Source: Arbacia lixula
Taxonomy: Eukaryota > Echinodermata > Echinoidea > Arbacioida > Arbaciidae
DNA length: 64,000 bases
Direction of reading: 5' to 3'
Assembly: GCA_963669155.1 (NCBI GenBank)
Contig: OZ022589.1
Span: forward strand, 18,905,787-18,969,786
Shown here: in pieces, positions 1 to 63,136 of the stretch
How the letters are laid out: the number at the start of each line of letters is the position of its first letter
Position numbering within the stretch: the stretch's first letter is position 1
Translations under genes and position numbers: made by a program
Notes under the pieces: model-generated
Database searches by the model: none
What the model was told of the DNA's origin: nothing
Seen by the model: only the letters and a program-made list of their open reading frames with translations

Positions 1-140
1 TAAGAGAGACAGAGAGAGAGATGAAGAGAGTGACAGACAGAGAAACGGCGGAGGGGGAGAAAGAAAGATGGAGAGAGGTCTGTGAGACAAATAGTGAGAG
101 AGAGGGATCCAGAGAGAGAGAGAGAGAGAGAGAGAAGGAG
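1..140. repeat. GA-rich simple sequence
   Basis: Purine-rich (GA)n tract, purest near 110-134. No gene signal. Confidence 0.85.
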
Positions 141-1665
141 AGAGCGTGAGCAAAAAAAGGTGTGCAGGGTGGATCTACATGTAAGTCGCCTGAACGGCAG
201 GGGATATCTGAAACACTTAACTTAAAAAGTGCGATGTTCGTATAAAGAAGGAGAGACGTAGCGAGTGATGACGTCCGTCAGGAAGTGAGAATGAAACAGG
301 AAGGCCTTACATCACACTACCAGACTAGACAAGAGGAAGAAATACTCGAGGAAAAGCGGGGATGAAATATTAGAGAGTAATCTAGGACAGGGATGAGAGA
401 GAGAATAAATGCAATGAGAGTTCCACAGCCTGATAAGTGCAACCTGATTTTGAGTTAAGGCAATCAGAGCTTCCGGATAGGGACACTTTGTTGAGATTGT
501 TTCGGCGACGAATCAAATCCTCTTTGTTGAAAGTGCTTTAATTCAGTTTTGTTTATGTCTGCCATTAGATCACGTACTCATCATCCACGTAGTATTGACT
601 TATTCTAAGCTACAACCGTGATAAGTTTACTGACACTCTGATGAGATTGTTTCAGGATCGATTCAAATCCTCTTTGTTTAAATCGTTTCAATTCGTCCTT
701 TATCTCAGGCCTACTATCTACATTTTCTGAGCTATAATGACCGTAATATATTTGTCGGTTGCTGGACATGTCTGTGCTCATACTCCTGAAGGTTTGGTTG
801 ACATGTCAGACGAGAAAAGTAGAAACGAACATTATATTACAAACAAACATATAAAAAAAAAAACGTTTACCCTGTACATGCTGTATGTTCAACAATGGTA
901 TGTTAGAGACCAGTTTACTGATATATTCAAATTTTATGCATACCAGTTTAATAAAGGTTGCCCCTGACAACCGGAAAGCTTGCCCGAGGTTTGCCCGACA
1001 TAGCATCAACTAATGTATGCAATTGGATTGCAAGTACTGAAATACCATTGTTAGGTACAGGTTAATGGAATAACTTGTTACTGTACTAGGGAAGAAACAT
1101 TCATAAATTTGATTACATTAGTAAACCGGTCTATTGCGAAACCACAAGTGAAGTGTGAGTTATGGAAATTCGAATATCAAAGTGTATTTAAAAGCGAACA
1201 CTATCGGTGTGTGTAAAATATGATTGTGGGTGAAGATGTGGAGTGCATATAAAGTGTGCATGTATGAGTGTATGTGTCTATGTTTTTGTGTGTGTATTTA
1301 TATAAACAAATACTTTTTAGTTCGATTGCCAGCGAGTCAAGGCTTCGATTTCCTCGATGTGTGGCTAGTTTGACAATCTGTCTAGGCCTCTCAGTCTCCT
1401 CTCTCATTAGGAATCGATATTGTCCAACACGCGCTGCACAGATGCGTTTCGACTGATGCCAATGGCCATTTTCCCATACCCTCCAAAAGATCTATACGAG
1501 TGACAAGAAAGTCATGTTTGTTGCAAATGGTATCAGTTGATTTATTTTAACTGAAGGCATAAGCCCCTTCATACTTAACTCTGTAAACGTGAAAGATGTT
1601 AGTCCATTAAGGATAATGTTTGTTGGCATGAGTCAAAACGTTTAAGTTTGTTTTACACAATAATC
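141..1665. other. Intergenic, no gene seen
   Basis: Short open frames only, without splice-site or composition support. A short TG-rich patch lies near 1205-1300. Nothing else recognisable. Confidence 0.6.
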
Positions 1666-1976
1666 ACCTGGGGGAGGGGGAGGTTCACCAAGCTGTTCGT
1701 AAGCTACGAACGTTTTATGCACGACTGGTACCCATCCCTGTGCTAAATGAGATACCACATTTTGCACCTGTATTAACATACAGAGGGAGTTCTTTTCCAA
1801 TCAAATTTGACAAATCATTCACTTTGTATTCAGACATTTGTTAACAACAAAAACTTTAATTAATTAGCATCAGATTTCAACTTAAACTGATGGGAATCAA
1901 AATCATTGAGAATCTGGTTCAACACAAGAAAAGGCGTTCGTAGCTTAAGAAAAGCTTGCTGAAACACCTTTCGGGC
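1666..1976. mobile_element. MITE family C, copy 1
   Basis: About 310 bp with imperfect terminal inverted repeats: the left end reads TTCACCAAGCTGTTCGTAAG and the right end is its complement (CTTAAGAAAAGCTTGCTGAAAC). The interior shares its order of motifs with the copies at 23.3 and 57.5 kb, including the 'catccctgtgctaaatgag' / 'aacacaagaaaaggcg' pair near the two ends. No coding capacity, so non-autonomous. Confidence 0.8.
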
Positions 1977-2015
1977 TAACTATCGCTTATGGGTTAAGAT
2001 ATTGACTCAACAGTA

Positions 2016-2041
2016 AGATTTGATTTGATTTGATTTGATTT
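2016..2041. repeat. (TTGAT)n pentamer tail
   Basis: Five tandem GATTT units. Such tails often end CR1/L2-type retrotransposons, but nothing upstream is recognisable, so it may be only a microsatellite. Confidence 0.6.
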
Positions 2042-2130
2042 CGCATAGTAGGTCTGATCACCAAAGGTTGGTAGCGTTCTTTGTGGCAATGTCCCTTTAA
2101 ATTTTTGGGGAACCTACTGAATTAGGAACC

Positions 2131-2520
2131 TCTCTCTCTCTCTCTCTCCCTCTCTCAAGTGCCATATCTTGAGACGTTGGCGACCATGAAATGCCAGGCT
2201 TTCGTTTCAATTGCCAGTCTAAGAAGCTCAGGCTTCTTCAATCTGGTCCACGTTGCAATGCTCTGCAAAAACGTTACTCTTTGGCGTCCTCGATCCCTCT
2301 TTCCTGCTATCTTGCCAGTGAGAAACAACACTCCAAATCTCCTGTTTTCATACAGTGTCCTTAAAATTCCAGCTGCTGTTTACATTGTCTGCCTGCCCTC
2401 TCTTAAACGACTGTGTTTGATGTGTGGCTTGTCCATGGGATCATGGGATCAACATACGTCTGAGGAACCACATTTCTGCTGCTTGTAAGCGATCTTCCAT
2501 TTCCTTGGATATTGTCCAAT
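2131..2520 (-). mobile_element. Non-LTR retrotransposon 3' end, 5'-truncated (copy 1)
   Basis: On the minus strand this encodes the last ~110 residues of a retrotransposon ORF2: an ATEMWFLRRML-like stretch, then GKRDRGRQRVTFLQS, TWTRLKK, KAWHFM and a C-terminal SRYGT just before the stop. These are features of the C-terminus of endonuclease/reverse-transcriptase proteins of non-LTR elements. The frame is broken by stops and small shifts. Immediately after the stop comes a (GA)n tract (CT on the plus strand, 2131-2157), giving the element almost no 3' UTR. A second copy lies at 54.7 kb on the plus strand; each copy keeps part of what the other lost. Confidence 0.75.
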
Positions 2521-2529
2521 TATTATTGT

Positions 2530-4730
2530 CCAATTAATTATTGTCCAATTAGGAACTATAAACCTGTATTCTTGGATGCAATCCATTCCACTTTTCCTCA
2601 AACTCTTGACTATCGTAGAGAGCTGCGTTTGACATCATGATAGTGGGTGTTTTGTACAACTTGTATGACTTCGCTTTTGTTGGTTGGTTTGATGCTAGAT
2701 ATTGTGCCGTTTTGAGTTATGTAAGAATACACATAAATGAATCTACAATGCATAATGGTTACTCAGTTGATCTCATTCGTCATTGCGCAAATGATCTTAT
2801 CTTTAGAAGTGAATTGTCATCTAATATGTTCTTAATGCTAAATATGTTACTCATTGCGGATAAATGGCTACTGATAATCGTTTGTCTCGAAATGTATGGT
2901 AAACGAAATCGAAAATATGTTCTTGTTGAAATTATGAAGAATTTATACATTTTATTTACCCTCAATACTCTTTTATTTCATTTCAGGCATGTTTTGTTTT
3001 TCATTGTGATGTTGAACATCGCATAAGGTCTGATGTATGTTTACCATTTAACCACGTTGAGCACTGTTTAAGCTCGAATGTACATTTGAAACGTAGATAC
3101 ACGTAGACATGGCAGATATTGATGGACAAACATGTTCAGATGTATTCTCCTTCGACCCTGACAATATTCACTCACTCTAAAGCATGTTTTCTACAGAGCG
3201 GCAATGGCGACTTCCATCTGCTTCTTGCACTCCGGCAATAACCATCTTTCCCACTTTTCCCCAAATGTAAAGATTGCCTTCCTCACACTTTCTTTTCCGT
3301 GTTGCTTCCTCCTCCTCCTTTTGCTGCAGCAGCAGCTAGGCCCAGCGGCGAGGCGTCCCATCTGGCCGGGACCTGGTCGGGCTGAGGAATGACAACGTCT
3401 GCCCTTTACCACCGGAAATTAAATTTAGACTGTTAGCCCCTCTGCGGTTTGTTCACGCAAGCTCGGAATAACAGGTCGACGCCAGAGGTTAAACAAAAGC
3501 ACTTCTCGAATTAGGTAAGTCAATTTTTGGCGTTTGTTTGGAAGTGTGCTTGTCTATTTATAGTAGAGAGGGAGACGAGGAGGTGTACAGCCATTTCATA
3601 AATCGATTGTTGTAAGGCAAGAAATCAGATCTGCCGTTCAATTGGTGCACGCCATGCTACACGCTGGGGTCACGGGTTCAGTAGGATGCGTATGTCGTGC
3701 TTTATGTCATTTCTCCTTTTTATGAAATGTACAAACAAGCTTACTGCTCGTTTCATCAGCTTCCTAACGAACATGTCTCGTCGTCCGCCCTCTTTCTGAA
3801 CGACCATGTTCAAGCACTTATTTTGGAGTTGCTCCGTTTAACTAGTTGGGAACAGAACATAGTTTACCCGGTTTATTTCATTGCGAGTCGTATATACGAC
3901 AGTTTTGTGGGCCTGTCTCAACTTTCCCTTTGTATCATAAAAGCGTAGACGGATAGATGATATATGACCAGCATATAACACGTCATATTTTGCATGATAT
4001 CAATATAGTTGTTTTAATCACATTTGCAACGCGATGTATTTTAGCTACATGTGTATTGATTATGAATAACACACTACGAATAATATTGCATTCAATGGAA
4101 AGTCGTGTTTGAAAAATATGAGGGGGAGGGGGCGCTAAATCAAGTAGATTCAGTGCAGTGATCAGCACTGAGCATAAACACATCATATAAACTTTGATGT
4201 ACAAAGGAGACAAGAATTGAAGAAACGAATATGCCATCATTGCTTGGAAAGAGGTTTTGACAAGATAGATTGGGCGTGACGTCAGAGCAACGAGCATAGT
4301 GTATGTGCCTGGAGGCCACGATGTCGCCGTTGTCGCACCATGATCACTCGTCCACATACACGATGTGACGGCCACACCCAGTACCGCCATCGGACGCACT
4401 GTGATCAGCGCTCTCTCGCTGATGATTTTTCGCATCGCATTTTTCAACAAATTTGGTCTTGATCGTGACTGCCTAATTCTATTGCGGCATCATGGGAACT
4501 CATGCCTGGAAGGGAAATCTGGTTACTGACGAGCCGCGAGCACCGGCCCCTCGGCGGTTATTATCCTGCTTCTTGACGAGGAACTGGGGTAATAGTCGGC
4601 TGTGTTACGCCAGGCGGTATAGCCTTGTCAACATTAAGTTCATTACAATGCGGGCATCGCAGTTGATGTCTGGCTTACAACGCGTTTCCTTCTAAGGAAA
4701 ACGGAGAACATATCAGTAGATGAGGGAGAG
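2530..4730. other. Intergenic, no supported gene
   Basis: Holds AT-rich open frames, the longest 2637-3026, which are hydrophobic and low in complexity and resemble no family I know. A perfect TGACGTCA palindrome is at 4277-4284. Nothing else is recognisable. Confidence 0.5.
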
Positions 4731-5215
4731 CACCCCCCCCAAAAAAAAAAAAAAAGAAAAAAAAAAGAGGAAGAACAACATGAAATTAGAACAAACAACA
4801 CCGGAAGAACAGCAGAATAGCAAGAAGAACACGATGCCGAGTAAAAACATAAACAGTAGCGGAAGAAGAATAAAAACAACATCAAACAGGAGACGGGTAA
4901 GAAGAATAAGAAAAAAAGAAGGAGGAGGAGGAGAAGAGGAGGAGGAGGAGAAGAGGAGGAGGAAGAGAAGGAGAAGAAGGAGGAGTAGGAGAAGAAGAAG
5001 AAGAAGAAGAAGAAGAAGAAGAAGAAGAAGAAGAAGAAGAAGAAGAAGAAGAAGAAGAAGAAGAAGAAGAAGAAGAAGAAGAAGAAGAAGAAAAAAAAAG
5101 AAGAAAGAGGAGGAGGAGGAGGAGGAGGAGGAGGAGGAGGAGGAGGAGGAGGAGGGGGAGGAGGAGGATTAGGAAGAGGAGGAGGAGGAGGAGACAGTGA
5201 AAAATATAATAAGAC
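4731..5215. repeat. C8-A15 run plus (AAG)n/(AGG)n array
   Basis: A C run and A run, then about 300 bp of AAG and AGG triplets (purest AAG 4993-5091, AGG 5107-5170). All frames through it stay open, giving spurious poly-Arg, poly-Glu, poly-Ser and poly-Phe proteins. Purine-only strand, so capable of triplex formation in principle. Confidence 0.95.
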
Positions 5216-6010
5216 CAAAAAAAAAGTTGAAGGAAATTGTACTCTTTGGAGTTGCGAATTCGGAAGGGTATCTGTAGCACTTTGAAACAATCTACTCCCG
5301 AGATTATTGCAAATGTGATACGGTTTAAATGTTTAACTTCCAAAGAATCTGATTTTATGAATGTTCTGATCGTTGGAAAGTGCTCCCAATTTACAATGCC
5401 TCACTGAGAGAGTCCTTCATCGGTATGCCGCTTCGTATGAAAGTCGACACGCCATTACATTCCAGTCGGAACAGAACACCGGCGTTCTAATTACGAGTAA
5501 GTGAGAACCTCGGGATAACTGAATTATTAATTAGATCTGAGAAGTGCGACATGAAGCCTCACGTTGTTTGCTGTCATATTGTCTGCATGGATCTGGGCCG
5601 CTATGAAAGTCTTGTTCTGCTAAACTTGAGCCGCCTGGACCGTCTTGAGTTACGACTTAGAGGAGGGTGTCCGTCTGGTTCTCGTCACGCAACCACTTGA
5701 TTCACAAACGCTCCCCTCGTCATAAATCTCTTTCCCGAAATGGGGGTGGGGCCTTAGTCACGAGGGGATGTCGCACGCCGTACACAAACCGTTATGTTTT
5801 GCATGTCTGTCCTACCTGATATTTTCACCGCCCCCCCCCCCCTTTCCCACACTCTCCTCGGTCTCTCCACCTTTGCCTCATCTTCATCTGTGAAACGTTT
5901 TCTCCGTATCATTACCATGCAATCGAAGTACAAGTAGCTGTACTTCTAGTACAGTACTATCAGCAGCATTAGTGGCACTACTGCTACTACTATTTCTAGT
6001 ACTACGTGTA
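5216..6010. other. Intergenic unique sequence
   Basis: Complex sequence with no recognised exon. Contains a C11 run near 5830. Confidence 0.5.
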
Positions 6011-6014
6011 AACT

Positions 6015-6153
6015 AGTTGTAGTAGTAAGAGTAGTAATATGACTTGTAATAGCAGTAGTAGTAGTAAAGTAAAGTAGTAAAGTAATAACTATTAGAAATA
6101 GTTATATTAGTAATAGTAGTAATAGTAGTAATAGTAGTAGTAGTAGTAGTAGC

Positions 6154-6184
<31 letters not shown>

Positions 6185-6185
6185 A

Positions 6186-6226
<41 letters not shown>

Positions 6227-6227
6227 C

Positions 6228-6283
<56 letters not shown>

Positions 6284-6286
6284 AAA
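6015..6286. repeat. (TAG)n triplet array
   Basis: About 270 bp of TAG with AAT and AGC interruptions. An array of the same triplet class in the opposite orientation begins at 7284. Confidence 0.95.
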
Positions 6287-6289
6287 TAG

Positions 6290-7283
6290 TAATGATATTG
6301 TTGTAACATCTTTTTTCCATGGCAAGTACCCTGGAGTTTCTTTGAATATGTTCCGTTAAGTGAAGACAAATCAACAAATAGTCTGCTCGGTAGATGACAT
6401 GGTGTTTTTCGTTTCATTCACTGATTTGGTATTGTTTGTCAATCTCGCTATTCAGCCAGCAAATGGAGTTTATCGCTTTAGGGAGAAATTTGAGGAGTTT
6501 TCTCATCATTACAAGCTGAACCGTTACAGTTAACAATGTATTTCATTTCAAGTAGCCAATTTGTATCATTACTGAATTGTTACTGAACCATGCAATACCA
6601 ATAAATACAGGGATATTGCGTTAATTTCCATTAAATTTCAAGCCTAATTGAACTGCTTTACAATTACAAACAGAGTACAAGCAGCAGCACACAACATGAT
6701 AAAAACAAGTTATGTTTTTACCAAAAAACAGAGCATTGTTACTGCAAAGAAAAAGAAACCAGTAGAGAGAGGGTCTACCCCTCGGTCACCCCTTGACCTT
6801 ATATCAAACCCATGAGTAATCCTAATACCGAACTCTTGTCGATGGATCCTATACTAGCTTGCTCACCACAACCCTTGCATATCACTGTCCAGACCCGCAT
6901 ATTTATGAAAATCTTACTTATTTTAATTTCTGTCTAATAAGATACATTATTGATCGGAAGTCCAACATTAGGCCGCAGTACTAGACCCGAAATCAACTAG
7001 GCTTTGCTTCCCTTATGGTAATTAGGATAATAAGGAATGCGGATGTGGGCCGGACAATATATCCTCCATATCGAACAATGATTGGACACTAATGGCAATT
7101 TTAATCATCATTGATTCGGTAAGAGGGGTCTTTATTGTTCTTGATGTATGATTCCATTTCTGGTCATTTACTCCAATTACAACTCGGTTTTTTTAGCGAT
7201 ATCCACGTGATATCTACTCAAATTTAGCCGAGGCTTCTACTAGGCAGACTACTACCCTTAATATTCATACTCAGAGTATCACT
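6290..7283. other. Unique spacer between inverted TAG and CTA arrays
   Basis: No gene seen. 6960-7140 is complex sequence with several TAAT cores and an ACAATGATTG motif, compatible with a homeodomain/SOX-bound enhancer. That is speculation from motifs alone. Confidence 0.4.
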
Positions 7284-7326
7284 ACTACCGCTCTATTACT
7301 ACTTCTACTATTACTACTACTACTAT

Positions 7327-7392
<66 letters not shown>

Positions 7393-7422
7393 TACTACTT
7401 CTACTACTACTACTACTCCTTT

Positions 7423-7479
<57 letters not shown>

Positions 7480-7570
7480 AACTACTACTACTACTAGTAC
7501 TGCTACCACCACTACTTCTACACTACTATTAGTGCTACTACTGCTACTACTGCTGCTGCTACTACTTCTA

Positions 7571-7621
<51 letters not shown>

Positions 7622-7770
7622 CTACTACTTCTACTTCTACTACTACTACTACTATTTCTACTACTTTTACCGATTCTACTACTTCTACAATCACTACTAC
7701 TTCTACTGCTCCTACTATTTCTAGTACTATTACTTCTACTTCTATTACTTCTACTTCTTATGCTTCTCCT
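7284..7770. repeat. (ACT/CTA)n triplet array
   Basis: About 490 bp of ACT triplets with TTCTAC and TGCTAC variants. It is the reverse complement class of the 6.0-6.3 kb array. Open frames across it (poly-Leu, poly-Val, poly-Ser) are artefacts. Confidence 0.95.
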
Positions 7771-10200
7771 TACTTCTCCCACTACGACTACGAACGTTGT
7801 TCGTTCTATCTATATATCAAACTCTCTATGTATCTGTCGTACCCGTTTATACTCATGATTTTTCCACTTATCGAAACAAATGATCTAACCAAGTTTGTGA
7901 TCAAAGTACTCGCGTGAGAATTTAGGTAACGCCCATGACCAGATAACATACGACACTGTATAAATGTGAGTACAGTGCAACCCACCTTCCATAAAGGTCA
8001 CTGACCTGTGGTAATATTGTTGCTCAAAATAATGCCCACACCAGCTGAGGGCACATTCACTTGGCGGCCTCGAGTGAAGACTACGCGCTCAATCATAATA
8101 AGATTGACGTAATTCAATCAAAGCTGTGATCAATTTATGTGATCATGTTACGTTTGAACGCGCTCCATATAGTGCAGTATAATACGGTTATGGGATAAAC
8201 ATAAATCCGTGAAACATTGGAGGCCTGCGGACATATCTACAAGCATATAATATAGATTGTGGGGATTTCATGCTGAACCCGACAAAGAAGCTATAAGGTC
8301 TCAGAAGTGTAGTTGGGATTTAGAAGTTAGATATTTAGGCTACTTATATGTGTTTTTCAAGTGTTATCATTCCGGTATCTTTTGTTTCTGAGCGCTATCC
8401 CTCAAATGCAATATATTTCTATATTGCTATAAAGTGTATTTAGCACGTTTAGAAAGGAAGGGGTTGTGCTTAAGTGCATAATGCGTATGTGTGTGTGTGT
8501 GTGTGTGTGTGTGCGATATTGCTTTAATCCTTCCTGTGTCAAATGAAATACTGCTTCGTGTGATTTGTGTGTGAATGCACACATGGTATGATAAGAATTC
8601 TATAGATGGTCCAACAAGTGATGGTATATTCTACTCATTATACATCAAGTAACGTAATATATAATTATGTGCCGGGAAGGAATTAAAAGCTTGTCTTATT
8701 GTGACCATTATGGTCATAGTGATGAGCAGAGATCAGAGAGAACGTGATTAGAATTTGAAGACAGTGATTTATCTGTCATTTCTTTTTTGTCTTTTTGTTT
8801 GCTTTTACTTCATATCCATGAACGTTTTACCATATACTTGATTTCCCCCTTGCCCGTGCCCCAGGCAAACGTAGATATATGCACCCCAACCAATCAGTGT
8901 GCGTTTCTGTAGAAGCCGTTCAAATAGCGAGACTAATCGGGCAGAAATCTATGGAAAATAATCAAGAAGGAAACGTTGGATCAATGCAATCATCTGCTTA
9001 GAAACAAAACTCATCTCGGAGAGAGAGCGCAAGTCAAGGAACGTAATAGAATCAAATCAATACGTCCCCCGAGGGGTGTAACCGTCATTTCATTTTTATT
9101 TTGAAGTTTTGACACGATATTAGCACATTACGAGTGGTAGGACACAGATGGAATTTTGATGAGAGATAATAAAAATCATATGATGTGAATGCGGACTGTA
9201 AATGCAAGGGAGAAACTCATGCAAGATGTTATGCGTTGTATCAACTCATTGGCAGGGTTCCCCACGTAATGGGACGTACCCCTCCAATAAAAAGTGTATC
9301 ATATTTTTCCCGGAATTTGATGTTGACATTTTTGCTATTTCAAATAACTTTTTACCCCCTTCCACCCCTCCAAAAAAGTGGACCCTATTTATCACCGGAA
9401 TCTGGATTTCCTATGTATCTTATGTATTCCACTTATTTCCTTAAATTTAAATATTATGCAGTCATCCACCAAAAAGGCCATACATGTAAACATGTGCGCC
9501 CTGGTTTCGAACTTTTTACTGGGCGCAATATTTCTTAAACCTTAAGGTGCCAGAAAATGTGGCTCTATGGATTTTGTGTGTATTAATGGTGAAATATTCC
9601 ACAAGTGGCATGTTTACGGTTAAAATGCGGTTTACTAAGGATGTACTTTCCGCATACAGTGCGTCATAATCAGATAATGACATGGCGATGCGCGGGCTGC
9701 CACCATTACAACATGTATGATCAGTATGCAGAGAGCGTCGCCGCGCATCCGCTTCCGTTCCGTGACGGGGTTACGCAGTGTCAGATGTCATTATCACAGC
9801 GATGCTGCCGAACCAACAACCTTACGTGCACGTCTCACTACAGTGATAGTTCATGGCCTTCAATCTGAAACATGTTTTATCATAATAAACAGCTTACTTA
9901 TATCCTATATGCACGATACAAACAAACGCGTACACTGAGATATTCATAACTGTGCGTTTTGTAAAGGTTGTGTAAGTGATTGACGTTCGATTTTTTGTGC
10001 TACAGATAGTGGGGTTAGTGTTGATTGTACTATTTGTAGTATGCAAAGTATTATTCATTATCTTTCATCAATCAGCGTGATGAAGAATCAAAATGAGCAA
10101 ATCTGCAGGTTATGTGTATTCCCTGGGCAACCTTTAAGTATTTTAAAGAACTTGTACTCTTCAGGGTGTCCTTCAGTTGTGTTAATGCATATGGGCTAAT
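7771..10200. other. Intergenic, no gene seen
   Basis: Contains a (GT)n microsatellite at 8488-8513 and a small imperfect palindrome (GATAATGACAT at 9673, complement at 9785). Open frames of up to ~117 codons lack homology or splice support. Confidence 0.5.
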
Positions 10201-44309: not shown

Positions 44310-44543
44310 AGATGCTGATGCTCCTAATGAGTTTGGTGATGTGGCCAGTGTCTACAGGTTAAACTATTAACATAATAAACTTTATTTTTGACGACATTTC
44401 AATTGTAATATAGAGTTCAATATGAATCGATTACATTTCACTCTGCAGGTCGTATATTATGTAGTATGCGGTCCTACATGTATCGGCAGTCATGTTCCTC
44501 TACACACTGTGTTGTATGGTATCTACATTACCTTATACTGTAG

Positions 44544-44884
44544 TAGTCCAGCAGCATGAACATCCCTGTGGGATTTTTTGTATGAAAGCAAGCCACCCAT
44601 CCAGATGTCTCAAGGGTACCCCAATGAACAATAAAAAACATGTTGGCAATTTTGTAACCCTGGCAGATAATAGTTATTAAGAATGAAAAGAACACAACAA
44701 AATTGTACTTGGAATAACCTCTTTTTTTAGGGGTAGGTCAATGCTTGTATAGAGAGTGCTTCAAAAAACAATATTTTTGTGAGGTGATGTCAAACTCAGT
44801 ATATAATTATCAGCAAGCATAATATGTAAAGCAAAGCACAAACCTTATTTAGTTGAAATCGGTTCAGAAACAGCTGAGATATCC
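44544..44884 (+). repeat. Left terminal inverted repeat
   Basis: Inverted copy of 49,629-49,979, with the outer ~120 bp clearly the best conserved. Similarity fades inside GAAATCGGTTCAGAAACAGC. Confidence 0.85.
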
Positions 44885-45287
44885 ATGAATATAACATTTA
44901 CAGTAAAGGTGACGGAACAATTTTTCGTTAATAATTTGGGAAAATATCATGAAATCCTAACACATTTGTTAAACTGTCTGATACATGTTCTAAATTTTTT
45001 CTAAAGAACATTTTCACTTGGCAGACTCCTTGATCGAATGACAGAACCATTCTAGATACAAATGGGATATGTTGAAATATTTAAGCTACAATAATGTCCC
45101 CATATAATACACAAGCAATACAGATTATGCATGTCCATTACCTGGTATGAAATGGAGAAGTCTACAAGTACAGTACCAGTTAACTGGGTAAACATAACAT
45201 TATGTTTGTAGACATATCAACTAAACTTCGCATGTCTTTAGATGGATTGGTACATAAATGTCACACTTTAATCAGCTAGCACATGAT

Positions 45288-45593
45288 TTACATCAAGTTT
45301 TCAACATCGTCCTCGTCATCTCCAGAGTCGTCACCCTCTTCATCATGAAATGACATCTCAGGATTGTCACACCCCTCACCGAGATCACAGGCACATAAAT
45401 CTGTGCAGTTTAATCCTGCCTTGCGACAGGAGCACCTAGCATCGTCACATTTTGACCTTGTGTTTCCGCACTTCACCAGCTGAATGACCGCGTTTGGTGC
45501 AGGCTGTTGCTTAGTCATCATAGGAACCCAAGCACCGTCTTCAAAGCTCCAGCCATAGTCCTGTGGGTACCTCTGGGTTTGGAACAGTGTCAT
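45288..45593 (-). pseudogene. Transposon gene, C-terminal CXC part
   Basis: Frame-shifted continuation of the upstream nuclease frame (useful from about 45,570 down). It begins QDYGWSFEDGAWVP, the tryptophan-rich linker usual before the cysteine domain, then CGNTRSKCDDARCSCRKAGL and NCTDLCACDLGEGCDNP: a cysteine array of the Tesmin/TSO1 CXC type, a likely DNA-binding zinc module. The tail is acidic (DDSGDDEDD). A single-base shift at about 45,555-45,590 separates it from the preceding frame. Confidence 0.75.
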
Positions 45594-46317
45594 TGTCCAA
45601 CATGATTGCTTGGTAGTGTGCCCTCAAGATTGCTTGTCGCAGTGCCTCTTGTGTAGGTGGCAACCTCTCTGACTCGGCCTGTTTCTTTGTGAAGAGCCAC
45701 CATCTCAGCTTTTCTACCTTAGCACTTTTGCTCTCTGGGACGTAGACCTTGCAGAGGAACTCTTCGAGACCATCATATATGGTATCACTTGGCCTTGGCA
45801 TGGTTCCTAGACTTCTCAGAGCAGATATCTCGTTGCTATCATCCCCTGTGTCACGGAAGATCTTCCAGAATGCAAGTTTGCCATTGCCAGCAAAGCCCCC
45901 TGTGTTGTCAGCTTCACTAAAGGCATGCAATCCTGGCAAAGCAGCAGCCTTTTTTGGTCCCATGGCTTCGTAGATTGGTCCCAGGGGGATGACTCGTCGC
46001 TTCGCACCTACTCCAGTTACAAAGTCAGTGTTGCTGCATAACTTAAGGTACCGCCGGATTGCAAGAACGAAGATATCGGTGTCGGGCGAATGAATGTTGA
46101 TGATGGAAGCCCCACTAGCAGTTGCGTCATCAGCATGCAGGATAAGTTTTATGTCTGCCTCTTCCTGCTGACTTTCAAAATGGCTGATATTTTTGTGCGT
46201 AGCTCGACACTGTGTGCCCCATGCGACCACCATCTGTTTCTGTTCGGCATGCGCCTTCATCAGCATTTTCTCTGCAAGATAGCCAGTGAGCTCCATCTTT
46301 GTTTTCACCTGAGACAA
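45541..46317 (-). pseudogene. Transposon gene, PIN/FEN-like nuclease region
   Basis: The longest intact piece, ~258 codons. Visible motifs: KTKMELTGYLAEKML; EEADIKLILHADDA, with the acidic E-AD typical of FEN/XPG-like PIN folds; IHSPDTDIFVLAIRRY, the S-DTD-VL strand expected to supply further metal-binding Asp; GPKKAAALPGLHAFSEADNTGGFAGNGK, the H-x-x-x-x-x-D-x-T-GGF/SF block of the family; and PPTQEALRQAILRAHYQA near the end. It is in the same frame as the piece at 46,321-46,590, parted only by one TGA (46,321-46,323), so a nonsense mutation lies inside the nuclease. Confidence 0.75.
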
Positions 46318-46320
46318 GAG

Positions 46321-46590
46321 TCATTTCAGTGGAACCTTTGCTATGTTTGTAGCATCTGTTATGTGGTAGGCGATGACTGGCTGACCCCCCTGCCTTCTGT
46401 CACGTGTGATACTCCTCAGAGAGGTTGGAACATCATATCGATCAAAGACCAGATGGATTTCATCGGCATCACTGTATTTCTCAAGGATACGGTCGGTGAA
46501 CTGGTCAGCCAGCTGGTTACAATATGTGATGTTGTTTGACTTGTGTAGGGCCTGGACATCTGCCATGGCATCGACAATGGCCACTTTCAT
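46321..46590 (-). pseudogene. Transposon gene, N-terminal part of the nuclease
   Basis: IVDAMADVQALHK, then YCNQLADQFTDRILEKYSDA and EIHLVFDRYDVPTSLRS. The VVD/IVD and VFDRYD acidic motifs are where PIN/FEN-like folds hold their first metal-binding residues. It ends at an in-frame TGA before the next nuclease piece. The piece upstream (46,587-46,940) is in another frame, so a one-base shift lies at about 46,590. Confidence 0.7.
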
Positions 46591-46940
46591 TGCTGCAGGT
46601 CTGTTTCCAGGTTCTGTGCCATTGTCAGGAAGTGATCCTTCTGCATCAGTGACATTTTTGGGAGCTTCTCAAGGATGGCCATCAGACTGCTCTTCGGGTG
46701 GCAGTGTAGCATTGTTCCATCAGCGGCAAACATTAAATTTGGCACTACTGACAACTCATGTCTACTGATCGTCTCCTCCAGGTTTATGCTGGGTCTGGAC
46801 TTCGACACCAACAACATGCTGGTGAACAGTCTGCGATCTTCTTTGAGCTCCACTTCCTTGTCTCCAGTGTTGACGTTCACTCGTTTCCCCGATGTTTTCC
46901 ATGTCTGAAGCTTAAATTCCTCTTCTTCATTTTGTCCCAT
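46587..46940 (-). pseudogene. Transposon gene, middle piece
   Basis: Unrecognised fold. Carries ELKEDRRLFTSMLLVSKSRP, NLEETISRHELSVVP and ADGTMLHCHPKSSLMAILEK, the block that normally precedes the nuclease in this family. The part encoded by 46,757-46,867 is the source of the inverted duplication at 47,131-47,241. Confidence 0.65.
46757..46867. repeat. Inverted duplication, source arm
   Basis: 111 bp, inverted copy at 47,131-47,241 with four mismatches by eye (~96% identical), separated by 263 bp. This arm is read in sense within the transposon gene, so it is the original. Confidence 0.85.
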
Positions 46941-47130
46941 ACATTGACGTCTGCTGAACTAATGCGGTCGGTGACGAATTCCTCAAACAACTTCTGGCCA
47001 ATGATGCTTTCCGCGCACAGATCACTCTTGACCTTCTCTGGCATGACTGCCTTTGTCACCGGGTTGAACAGGTCACCGCTTTCGTCTTCAAATGGGTTTG
47101 TGACTCTTCCAATAGTGGATGTGAGCGATT
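46877..47130 (-). pseudogene. Transposon gene, piece containing TNPFEDESGDL
   Basis: SLTSTIGRVTNPFEDESGDL, then ESIIGQKLFEEFVTDRISSA and DVNVWDKMKKRNLSF. It overlaps the next piece in a different frame (shift near 46,930). Codons further upstream in this frame (47,131-47,212) read the antisense of the duplicated block and are not original coding. Confidence 0.6.
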
Positions 47131-47241
47131 CTGGAGACAAGGTAGGGGAGCTCAAAGAAGATCGCAGACTGTTCACCCGCATGTTGTTGGTGTCGAAGTC
47201 CAGACCCAGCATAAACCTGGAGGAGACGATCGGTAGACATG
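47131..47241. repeat. Inverted duplication, inserted arm
   Basis: Antisense copy of 46,757-46,867 lodged between coding blocks ending SAAVAAAAR-like (minus strand ~47,245) and SLTSTIGRVTNPF. It disrupts the transposon gene. Confidence 0.8.
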
Positions 47242-47900
47242 TCTTGCTGCAGCTGCAACTGCAGCTGAGAGGGTATGATGACGCGTCTGAGCAGGCGATG
47301 CGAATCCAGCAATGTCACAGGCTTCGTCGGCAAGTCTGGCCAGTTCTGGTGAGATTAAGAAGAACTTGGAACGAGCGTAGGCATTCCCCCAGCTACCTTC
47401 ATGGAGCGGTTGATGTGTTCAAGTGCGTGGCCTGCCCCTACAGCACAGAATCTGAATGCCACATTCCCATTCTTGTTCACCACCCAGTTTCCCTCCATGA
47501 ATTCCTGATAGGTATCAGGGTCTGAACGTCTTAGGAGTTCCATGTCAGCCAGATACAGTGGCATCAAGCGAGCTAGTTCTGCTTGTCCAGGGCGAAGAAG
47601 TGCTTGGTGAAGTTCTCTATTGACCGGATGTGTAGGTTCCAGTCTCCGACTCTGACAGACCTGATGAACATAAGCATCTCCATGATCATCTGCATGTACA
47701 TCACAACTAGCAGGGGCTTCTTTTCATTTGCAGCATCAAACTGAGCCATCTTCTCTGTCACACCGCATGCCTGGATTGTCTGAACTATAGCAGAGTGCGC
47801 TTTCTGTATGTCTTCACAGCTGCCATCTCTACATAACCGAGCAAGAGCTTGTGCTGCTTCTGTGAGAATTCCTTGTTGATTTGGGTGGTCATGAAGAAAC
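47242..47900 (-). pseudogene. Transposon gene, pieces upstream of the inverted duplication
   Basis: Reading minus: EAAQALARLCRDGSCEDIQK and HSAIVQTIQACG, then TEKMAQFDAANEKKPLLVVM and IENFTKHFFAL (47,573-47,761); shift; MPLYLADMELLRRSDPDTYQ and VNKNGNVAFRFCAVGAGHAL (47,355-47,567); shift; FFLISPELARLADEACDIAG and FASPAQTRHHTLSAAV (to ~47,245). At least two frameshifts. The order of motifs fits the family's middle region. No known enzymatic fold recognised in this part. Confidence 0.65.
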
Positions 47901-48227
47901 GCAGTCTAGTACAGATGGAACAGTGTCTGTAGTGGGACCACATGTGCTTCTATTACTCTTCTGACATGTTTTCCTTCAAGGATTTGCCTCACTGTGGTTG
48001 GTCCATACAAATTGGCTTCCGTCCAACAGAAATCTATCCCGCTGTTCTCGATGTAGGTGCAAATGCAGCGGAGCTGTGCCATCACGTGAAGTTCTCCTGG
48101 CCGCAGTCTTCCATGTCATTGCGGGTCATCTGCTGCTTTGCCGGTTTGTATACAGGTGCAGGTGCAGCAATCAGGGGCGGTGTGCCTACTCGTGTGGTTG
48201 GTAGTACCTCACTGGCAGTCATTAGGA

Positions 48228-48564
48228 AGCTTTCGTTATAGCCCCGCGGACGGTAAAGAGCAATCTGGTCTAGCCGTCCGTCCGCGGGAGTCACAGGCGC
48301 TTTCGTAAAATAAGACAGAGAACGCGAACGGCGGTCCGTGGGACGTCATCTGACCCCCTGACACCCCCCGACCCGGGCGCACGTGCGATTTGCAATGACA
48401 TCATATGTACGGGCGCTGATTGGCTGCTCTCCGCAACTCGTCGTGAACGAAAAACTTCAAAATTCACATCCGCGCGGATAGCGAGGCCGAGGGTGGCGCA
48501 TGCGCAGATCGATCTTCGTATCGGATTACCGTACTGGAGCCCGTCCGTCCTCAAAACGAAAGCT
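48228..48564. mobile_element. Small GC-rich palindromic insertion in the transposon
   Basis: 337 bp with perfect 10-bp inverted ends AGCTTTCGTT / AACGAAAGCT, and an inner hairpin CCGCGGACGG...CCGTCCGTCCGCGG. Much GC-richer than the host element and lacks its coding motifs. Likely a MITE nested in the transposon. Confidence 0.6.
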
Positions 48565-48825
48565 CGCTATTGAGTGGTCTGCTGACCACGTCGGGACATC
48601 ATTATTTCCTTGAGTGACAGTTTCATGTTTGTCTGGAAGTAGGACTGTCTCTTCTCTGACCGTCTGCTGATGGGACCTAACCAGGATCCGACCCATCAGC
48701 CAGGCGACATCTGGAAGGGAATCATCTAAAGGTTGTAGAGGATCCTTTTTAAGACTGAAGGAGGCATAAACATGGCCTTGTGGTTTGAGAGATGGCTTCG
48801 GGCACTCCAGCAGCTTGGGCGTTGC

Positions 48826-49170
48826 CTAGCTCATAAGATCCTTTGCGGAGTCTTCCAGATCTTGGCGAGGCGGTTCTAGTCGAGGTGTATCATCATCTTG
48901 CTGGCATCTTTGGTAAATGACCATTGCTGTCCCATGCAGGGTGCGCTTTCCATCGCGAGTGTCTTCCGCAAAGTCCACTTTGTCTACTGCGAAATATATG
49001 TGTCTTCCCTTTACAATGTCCGTGGGTATGTAGACACTATCGTTGGCCTTCATTCGTTGTAGGACAGAAGTCGCAACTTGCCCTTCCATCCGCAGGAGTC
49101 GTGTATATCCCACAGACATTCCAAACCTATTCAAAATGTTGACGCTCCAACTGCAAGCTGTTGTGGCATT
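48826..49170 (-). pseudogene. Transposon gene, N-terminal region, second frame
   Basis: NILNRFGMSVGYTRLLRMEG, QVATSVLQRMKANDSVYIPT, GRHIYFAVDKVDFAEDTRDG, KRTLHGTAMVIYQRCQ. The 'FAVDxxDFAEDTxDGKxTLHGT' block is a strong signature of this gene family. The upstream piece is in another frame, with the shift near 49,165. Confidence 0.7.
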
Positions 49171-49550
49171 TCGCGCATCTTCCAGAGGGACTGTGACTTC
49201 CTGTTGCTGACTTGGTACCTGGACAGGAACATGCTCACTGTGCCTTGGGCTAGACTGATGGAATGTTTGTTCACCTGCGATGACTTCGTATCTGTGGACA
49301 GAGTAGTGTGTGGCCCTTGAATCACCCACCGAAAACAGCAGTACAGCTTTTTGGGTACATGTTTGCTTGTCACGTCTGTGAAAGAGCCTTCAAACGTCCA
49401 TACCTCTGCTTTGCTGATGGCTTTTCTGAGAATGTTAGCTGCTCTGTACAGGGTGTTCATGTCCTCCTCAGTGTTTGTAATGGTATCCTCCACCAACTGG
49501 ACTGCAGCGTCTCTCGTTCTCTTTAGCATTACACGTTTAGCTTCAGTCAC
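49131..49550 (-). pseudogene. Transposon gene, N-terminal region, first frame
   Basis: EEDMNTLYRAANILRKAI, WTFEGSFTDVTSKHVPKKLY and FFRWVIQGP-like text, then SQVNKHSISLAQGTV and MREMPQQLAVG. The initiation codon is uncertain; the frame opens close to the inner edge of the right TIR, so little or nothing of the gene lies outside the element. Confidence 0.65.
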
Positions 49551-49628
49551 GCGTAATATTTCATAACATTTTCTTTAAAAAATCAAATAAAAGTTGGTTT
49601 GCCACAAATATCATGAAAAATATATATA

Positions 49629-49979
49629 GGATATTTCAGCCGTTTCTGAACCGATTTCGACCAATTAAAGTTTGTTCTATGGTTAACATTATTTGTTTGC
49701 TGTTAATTTAACACAGAATTGGTTATTACCTTATAAAAAATATTGTTTTTTGAAGCGCCCTATATACCAACACTAATCTACCCCTAAAAAATTAGTAAAT
49801 TTAAGCACATTTTTGTCGTTTTCATTTCACCCTCAATAACTATCATCTGCCAGGGTTACAAGATTGCCAACATGTTTTTTATTGTTCATTGGGGTGCCCT
49901 TGAGACATCTGGATAGGTGGTTTGCTTTCATACAAAAAATCCCACGGGACTTTTTTTCTGTGGACATGCTCCCGGACTA
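49629..49979 (-). repeat. Right terminal inverted repeat
   Basis: Mirror of the left repeat, ~10 bp longer through small indels. The divergence between arms suggests the insertion is not recent. Confidence 0.85.
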
Positions 49980-50201
49980 TAGGCTTGTAGCATGGATACA
50001 TCTTGTGCGTGATCATGAAAGTGCTGAAATAATGTTGATGGCGTGCGCCTTCCAGGAATAATAGTGGATTTATGGTTGGGCACGTCTCATGCGTCTGTGC
50101 CGAGAGCCCCGTCGCGCGTCACCCTCTGATCTTCCCGACACTTGACTCGGGCTCTTGAGTGTGATAGACCCGTCCTGTCCGTTTATTTAGTAAGCTCCAA
50201 G

Positions 50202-62116: not shown

Positions 62117-62409
62117 CAGAGCAGAGGTATAACACAAACAGTGAACTAAAGCTGTACTCACTTTATGGGGCGCCAAATGAAAACAACATGAAACATTATC
62201 ACTGATTCAATATATTTGATTTTTTACTTGGAATCACCATGACATGTTGAGTCTGTCCACGTAATGAGTATAGCGAACAACTAAAATCACAAATTGTTGG
62301 GATTTTGTGATGTAAATCAATTATATTGTGACAGCATCAGATGATTTATTTTGTGCCTCATGAAGTTAGTCTACGTTTAGTGTGCAGTCTAGGTTAAACC
62401 TCTGTTCTG
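62117..62409. mobile_element. MITE family E, best-preserved copy
   Basis: Ends CAGAGCAGAGGTATAACACA and GGTTAAACCTCTGTTCTG. Interior GGGGCGCCAAATGAAAACAA and GACAGCATCAGATGATTTAT as in the other copies. In a COASY intron, immediately before the hexamer array. Confidence 0.85.
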
Positions 62410-62427
62410 AATATGCACATCCCATCG

Positions 62428-62955
62428 TCAGAGTCAGAGTCAGAATCAGAGTCAGAGTCAGAGTCAGAGTCAGACTCAGAGTCACAGTCACAGTCACAGT
62501 CACAGTCAGAATCACAGTCAGAGTCAGAGTCAGAGTCAGAGTCAGAGTCAGAGTCAGAATCAGAGTCAGAATCAGAATCAGAATCAGAATCAGAATCAGA
62601 GTCACAGTCACAGTCAGAATCAGAGTCAGAGTCAGAGTCAGAATCAGAATCAGAATCAGAATCAGAGTCAGAGTCAGAGTCAGAGTCAGTGTCAGAGTCA
62701 GAGTCACAGTCACAGTCACAGTCACAGTCAGAATCAGAGTCACAGTCACAGTCACAGTCACAGTCACAGTCACAGTCAGAATCAGAGTCAGAGTCAGAGT
62801 CAGAGTCAGAGTCAGAGTCAGAGTCAGAATCAGAGTCAGTATCAAGTCAAAGTCAAAGTCAGAGCCAGAGTCACAGTCAGAGTCAGAATCACAGTCAGAG
62901 TCAGAGTCACAGTCACAGTTACAGTCACAATCACAGACACAGTCAGTCACAGTCA
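62428..62955. repeat. (GTCAGA/GTCACA)n hexamer array
   Basis: About 88 hexamers, GTCAGA, GTCACA and ATCAGA in changing order, with clustered runs of one type that point to growth by local slippage. No stop codon can arise in any frame, so long Ser-Glu, Arg-Val and Leu-Thr frames appear on both strands; they are not proteins. It lies in the COASY intron between the 63,188 and 61,817 exons. Confidence 0.95.
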
Positions 62956-62957
62956 CA

Positions 62958-63136
62958 GGAGTAGCAATCTAAATCTCTTTACTGCCAGCTAAGAGAAAAA
63001 GAGCCTACCTTGGCCAAATTCTTGGACGACCTGCTGATGTGCCAGTGTGCCTGGATCATACGCCCTATGACCTAGTCTGTCACAGTCACAGTCACAGTCA
63101 GAGCCAGAGTCACAGTCACAGTCAGTCACAGTCACA
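62958..63136. repeat. 179-bp tandem duplication unit
   Basis: GGAGTAGCAATCTAAATCTC at 62,958 recurs at 63,137 with the following ~110 bp: intron end, donor and exon 3' part through GACCTAGTCTGTCACAGTCA. This unit ends in a short GTCACA run (63,078-63,136); the second runs on into intact exon. Confidence 0.9.
63009..63076 (-). pseudogene. Duplicated partial COASY exon
   Basis: Copy of the 3' third of the 63,188-63,374 exon: CTAGGTCATAGGGCGTATGA ... CAAGAATTTGGCCAAG and its donor GTAGGC. It has two or three base changes. Its 5' part, including the P-loop, is replaced by hexamer repeat, and the only AG before it is within the repeat. Most likely not spliced in. Confidence 0.85.

Follow-up and report, generated by a model that had tools for sequence, protein, structure and literature searches.

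The element at positions 44544 to 49979 of the stretch analyzed here (64,000 nucleotides of the sea urchin Arbacia lixula, contig OZ022589.1, positions 18,905,787 to 18,969,786 of the forward strand; hereafter, the window) is very probably a deletion-derived, nonautonomous cut-and-paste DNA transposon that depends on a transposase acting in trans and that is Academ-like, or more narrowly AcademX-like, by its features. The original prediction had described a gene pairing a FEN-like nuclease with a C-terminal Tesmin/TSO1 CXC cysteine array as the cargo of this transposon. In our analysis, the element itself encodes this region as part of its transposase: the nuclease and CXC form the C-terminal portion of a protein that has a DDE domain in its middle.

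The element starts with TAGTCC at 44544 and finishes with GGACTA at 49979. It is directly flanked by TAG at 44541 to 44543 and at 49980 to 49982, the left and right copies of the target-site duplication, as read from the window sequence and from comparison of flanks among copies. The left terminal inverted repeat (TIR; 44544 to 44900, plus strand) and the right TIR (49623 to 49979, minus strand) were delimited by arm alignment and by their recurrence in other copies. Aligned with each other, the arms are 76.5% identical over 422 columns (score, 442), while 192 random reverse-complement pairs drawn from the window reached a best score of 137 and a next best of 50. A scan of the window for 14-base tip pairs beginning with TA and having a matching 3-bp flank found one, compared to 0.03 expected. 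The arm alignment and the tip scan therefore bear out the long TIRs, their tips, and the TAG on both sides as first described.

The same ends were found at 14 further loci with the same gene. In searches of the species' own 607-Mb assembly, in which only the best candidates were scored, the left TIR gave at least 40 matches (40 of 48 candidates scored), comprising 15 close loci and 9 weaker places; 20 genome stretches were fetched for reading of the copies. The 15 close copies are the window element, L009 to L020, the C17 element (L021 and L022), and L023. Both TIRs lie within the read stretches at 14 of these loci (L023 has the right end only), and the right tip of L019 has lost ~12 bases. 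The left TIR of the window recurs at ~93 to 98% identity in 13 other left ends, 12 of them full and 1 split. Each window arm is ~93 to 98% identical to the same-side arm of the other close copies, and left and right arms are ~80 to 84% identical over their alignable part (82.6% over 321 bases in the window). The divergence of left from right is therefore a family trait and not a measure of age. The gene is present in all 15 close copies, so that these TIRs do not occur mostly without it. Older TIR relatives are different: among the four weaker places fetched (L024 to L027), only L024 holds a gene fragment, within a 1.24-kb copy that has a left TIR of ~75% identity and no matching flanks, and L025, L026, and L027 had no match to the gene in a mapping of its homologue P0003.

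A transposase with a fused nuclease

A protein search with a composite query from three copies recovered at least 94 homologues among the best 7,991 candidates scored; the sources named are Actinostola, Porites, Nematostella, Exaiptasia, Branchiostoma, and insects. Single open frames of ~1,600 amino acids occur among them, e.g., P0003 (66% identical), in which zinc-finger cysteines are followed by a DDE domain and then by a FEN/XPG-family nuclease, with CXC at the C terminus. In cnidarians, amphioxus, and others, the nuclease and the CXC part thus share one open frame with the DDE domain. Across 45 of the homologues with at least 1,380 amino acids (five others were set aside), residues D487, D490, H503, D679, H707, D927, and E931 (P0003 numbering) were invariant, as were the nuclease residues D1187, D1230, E1323, E1324, D1326, D1350, and D1352; D1408 was present in 44. 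In a set of 50 of the 94 homologues, the triad D490/D679/E931 and the same seven nuclease residues were present in all 50 rows, and D487 and D1408 were present in 48 each. The cysteines were likewise conserved in this set, with nine CXC cysteines kept in 39 to 44 of 42 to 47 rows and six N-terminal cysteines kept in 38 to 42 of 39 to 43 rows.

The predicted catalytic fold of a homologue is nearest to the P element and Hermes among solved structures and has helices inserted after the second Asp and before the Glu. The FEN-like nuclease proposed from the window is also supported by the fold of a homologue. For the Tesmin/TSO1 CXC array, the window scored 17.1 bits against the Pfam TCR profile, below the curated cutoff of 23.5 bits, and one of five scanned homologues exceeded the cutoff, with 27.3 bits. 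Apart from CXC, searches of the window pieces against Pfam and NCBIfam yielded weak or chance matches only, a PDB sequence search with one window piece gave chance coiled-coil matches, and a profile search reached EXO1 only at an E value of 0.72. Precomputed annotations assign DUF6589 (PF20231) to 27 of the 94 homologues, but its score in one of the five scanned was only 16.4 of 27 bits; no mention of it was found in the literature examined.

A catalytic fold nearest to the P element and Hermes, together with a comparison to Academ made by description only, might point to a sister lineage of Academ that is new to science or to a different superfamily that makes 3-bp duplications, such as Zator or CMC-like elements. 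We consider this an improbable alternative: the tips are not CACTA, and in the portions consulted of the paper that defines the AcademX features, a nuclease together with 3- to 4-bp duplications is named for AcademX only (PMC10045372).

It is much less probable that an unrelated transposon, with its transposase elsewhere, picked up a host nuclease-CXC gene as cargo. Such a capture might be suggested by the window, where only the CXC piece gave a Pfam match worth naming, and a weak one, and where the original prediction recognized only the nuclease and CXC. However, the homologues hold nuclease, CXC, and DDE in a single frame, which contradicts the cargo reading. Moreover, remains of the DDE domain lie upstream of the nuclease/CXC part in 14 elements, and the other, L017, keeps an N-terminal half with two of the three catalytic acids. 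A transposase is thus present, as remains in the same polypeptide region; it was initially overlooked because the window copy lacks ~285 N-terminal residues and D679 and is frameshifted.

State and insertion sites of the copies

Mapping of P0003 onto each of the 15 elements placed them in three deletion classes, and none can encode the full enzyme. Class A (the window, L009 to L013, L016, L018 to L020, and C17; 11 of 15) lacks ~285 N-terminal residues and D679, with a frame break at residues 423 to 434 in nine copies. Class B (L014, L015, and L023) keeps D679 and has lost residues 749 to 785 and the nuclease core, and L017 keeps only residues 6 to 840. The ten copies free of large inserts are 4.3 to 5.9 kb long, all of them deletion derivatives. 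The C17 element is 15.7 kb long and contains foreign open frames of 813, 1,394, and 580 amino acids, probably a nested retroelement. All listed nuclease residues are kept in the window, L019, and L020, as might be expected if copies were retained because the host uses the FEN-CXC part. Such use by the host is highly improbable, considering that the frames are broken in the copies with listed frames and that 7 of the 11 class A elements carry D1230N, a change to a residue shared by all 50 homologues.

Both tips could be read in 13 copies, and identical 3-bp flanks were found in 12 of these (tag, taa, aaa, tat, tgc, cta, taa, tta, cat, taa, tac, and tga), which confirms the predicted 3-bp target duplication; the single copy with unmatched flanks was L012 (ttt/tta). 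Two other copies also passed the comparison with empty sites. The flanks of L010, joined with one AAA, have an unfilled counterpart near the start of L027 (90% over 73 bases), and L017 is inserted in one arm of a palindromic repeat whose opposite arm lacks the insertion (82% over 165 bases), with the target triplet differing by one base. These are paralogous sites that lack the copy and one 3-bp duplication. Two further matches of joined flanks were less clean: L010 aligned to its own right flank, gapped next to the junction, and L015 matched L027 with many gaps. L019 and L020, which lie ~31 kb apart, do form a segmental duplication; they have the same flanks and are 99.5% identical over 9.7 kb. 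As an account of all 15 loci, segmental duplication, or a multicopy gene that has repeats by coincidence, is the least credible of all readings and is contradicted by short flanks that differ at the other loci, by 12 of 13 copies having their own 3-bp duplication exactly at the tips, and by the two unfilled sites.

Since each of 12 of the 13 copies with readable tips has a target duplication of its own, movement must have occurred in the deleted state, and the presence of nearly all the defective copies at separate sites with their own duplications suggests that they were mobilized in trans. L009 and L018, for example, are 99.4% identical over 5.2 kb (aligned pieces of at least 150 bases) and lie on separate contigs, where their flanks differ. 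It follows that there should recently have been an intact source; none was found among the best candidates scored in the genome searches. Such a parent would have encoded one protein of ~1,600 amino acids, as the homologues do. Its zinc-finger cysteines and a possible winged helix may bind the long TIRs, and the P element/hAT-like DDE domain (D490, D679, and E931 in P0003) would cut the ends and join them to a target with a 3-bp stagger. Made from an intact copy elsewhere, the transposase would act in trans on the TIRs of deleted copies. The nuclease might trim a flap or another intermediate during excision or repair, and the CXC end could provide extra DNA contacts.

The window copy had been described as almost entirely filled by one coding strand. 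Minus-strand coding content is indeed present, but as broken pieces. The CXC (Tesmin/TSO1-like) cysteine array at the transposase C terminus lies at 45363 to 45473 (minus strand; Pfam scans and homologue alignment). It is followed by the FEN/XPG-family nuclease region at 45562 to 46608 (minus strand; P0003 residues 1175 to 1523), placed from open frames, P0003 mapping, and the homologue fold, which keeps all listed carboxylates and has one in-frame stop at 46321 to 46323. P0003 mapping placed the remaining coding parts, all on the minus strand. These are the region between DDE and nuclease (46656 to 47131; residues 1000 to 1156), the frameshifted second half of the DDE region (47275 to 48222; residues ~626 to 985), and the first half of the DDE region (48572 to 49553; residues 286 to ~628). 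The second half keeps Glu 931, and a ~109-bp deletion with its junction at 48181 to 48182 took out the catalytic Asp 679. The first half keeps Asp 487 and Asp 490, lacks residues 1 to 285, and has the frame break at 423 to 434.

Two rearrangements interrupt these parts. By self-alignment and P0003 mapping, a segment at 46752 to 46867 (minus strand) is the source of an inverted copy at 47131 to 47246 (plus strand; 95%). Among the 11 class A copies, 9 have this 116-bp inverted duplication, which is absent from the 4 remaining elements and probably spread with a defective master. Copy comparison also revealed a nested 345-bp insert at 48224 to 48568, with short inverted tips AGCGAGCTTTCGTT/AACGAAAGCTTCCT and an AAT/AAT duplication (48221 to 48223 and 48569 to 48571); its site is unfilled in L010, L013, and L014, and the insert is thus another small element that is flanked by a 3-bp duplication. 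Elsewhere in the window, very long simple-repeat tracts at 4643 to 5400, 7262 to 7858, and 62366 to 62992 give rise to spurious long open frames.

Relatives beyond the 15 copies

The original prediction held that the gene family, or at least this branch, moves as a DNA transposon. For the branch this stands: in a protein search of the same genome with the L017 piece, all matches of at least 65% identity, among the best candidates listed, fell within the same 15 elements. For the whole family the evidence is divided. The same search found distant relatives at 22 to 31% identity, five places with long open frames and two with short ones. The three with long frames that were fetched (L061, L062, and L063) have frames of 1,508 to 1,555 amino acids between stops with all 14 listed residues intact, and they are 56 to 61% identical to each other and 25 to 26% identical to P0003. 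A TIR scan found neither TAG tips nor long arms within 1.1 to 1.7 kb on either side of any of the three, and arms were detected in all three positive controls (L030, L028, and L010). A looser tip scan of L061 and L062 gave one weak pair in L062 (11 of 14 bases, with TTG flanks; 0.1 expected), which we did not take as TIRs. These three intact relatives, all without clear TIRs, could be retained genes, or else elements whose ends are short or lie farther away. Shortly past the gene end of L062, at positions 5955 to 6327, there is a 184-nucleotide hairpin (90% complementary), which is probably a small palindromic element.

On the other side, one probable mussel relative does have TIRs. A bacterial genome collection gave 48 pattern matches and two relatives, L029 and L030, both of which look like eukaryotic contamination by the appearance of their contigs. 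In L030, from a Bathymodiolus symbiont assembly and probably host mussel DNA, the nuclease-CXC part lies between TAGTAGGGTGCCC tips with TTA on both sides (element at 86 to 3367). The tips, TAG..CTA, match at 13 of 14 bases (0.3 expected), and further arms lie inside; L030 thus adds another case, independent of the first, in which TIRs enclose the gene. The other contig, L029, was binned in a metagenome-assembled genome of Planctomycetota; it encodes a 1,466-amino-acid animal-type relative, starts within the gene, and is probably contamination. None of 63 pattern matches in IMG/VR was a relative.

One might suppose that the FEN/XPG nuclease is an obligatory catalytic partner of the DDE center in this lineage, as both sets of acids are kept in all 50 homologues, save D1408 in two, and that L061 to L063 are host genes retained from such a transposase. 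We regard this as speculative and improbable.

Comparison with known systems

The nuclease of AcademX is of the XPG type. In the excerpts available, AcademX is described with 3- to 4-bp duplications and tied to a nuclease, and AcademH with 9- to 10-bp duplications and tied to a helicase (PMC10045372); Academ is elsewhere given a 3-bp duplication (PMC5199201) and a RecQ helicase (PMC3627910), and bivalve Academ elements have a mean length of 5,565 bp (PMC10294476). Excerpts of PMC4455052, PMC5753468, PMC9004415, PMC10799480, and PMC12730594 contributed no decisive point. As far as those excerpts go, our element shares with AcademX the 3-bp duplications (12 of 13 copies), a nuclease in the same element as a DDE transposase (triad in 50 of 50 homologues, with one catalytic acid lost in the window copy), and marine invertebrate hosts. 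A length of ~5 kb is possibly shared as well, the 4.3 to 5.9 kb measured here being that of deletion derivatives. The 3-bp duplications differ from the 9 to 10 bp of AcademH. Membership in Academ, suggested originally by the 3-bp duplication and the XPG-like nuclease, is therefore probably right, with AcademX nearest, as judged on features and on published descriptions of Academ. A literature search found no paper joining a FEN1- or XPG-like nuclease, a CXC domain, and a DNA transposon or transposase.

The element thus illustrates well a kind of jumping gene that is probably already known, and not a new system; the modest surprise is that the supposed cargo is the transposase itself. Multicopy animal genes labeled as uncharacterized or CXC-domain, at least in this branch, gain an identity as DDE transposases with a fused flap-type nuclease. 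The loss of one of the three transposase acids in 11 of 15 copies explains how such elements can go unnoticed. The question raised is what function a flap-type nuclease has within a DDE transposase, and the exact ends, target duplications, unfilled sites, and map of acids make its role in transposition directly testable.

Other systems share single parts of this design. The predicted catalytic fold resembles that of the P element and Hermes transposases, including the extra helices that separate the second Asp from the Glu. P element and hAT duplications are ~8 bp, unlike the 3 bp here, and the nuclease and CXC parts are additional in our element. Kolobok elements target TTAA. Three Kolobok lineages with added nucleases (KolobokE, KolobokD, and KolobokP) likewise combine a DDE transposase with an additional nuclease, but in the text available their nuclease folds are lambda exonuclease-like, DEDDh, and His-Me finger (PMC9587614), and the 3-bp duplications here are of varied sequence. 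As regards the KDZ (Zisupton) group, the CXC array here is Tesmin/TSO1-like. The EXO1, FEN1, and XPG nucleases share the fold and seven carboxylates with our element. The nuclease carboxylates of the transposase presumably correspond to FEN1 residues. In comparison with these enzymes, at ~10 to 14% identity in structural alignments, the nuclease here is fused to a transposase.

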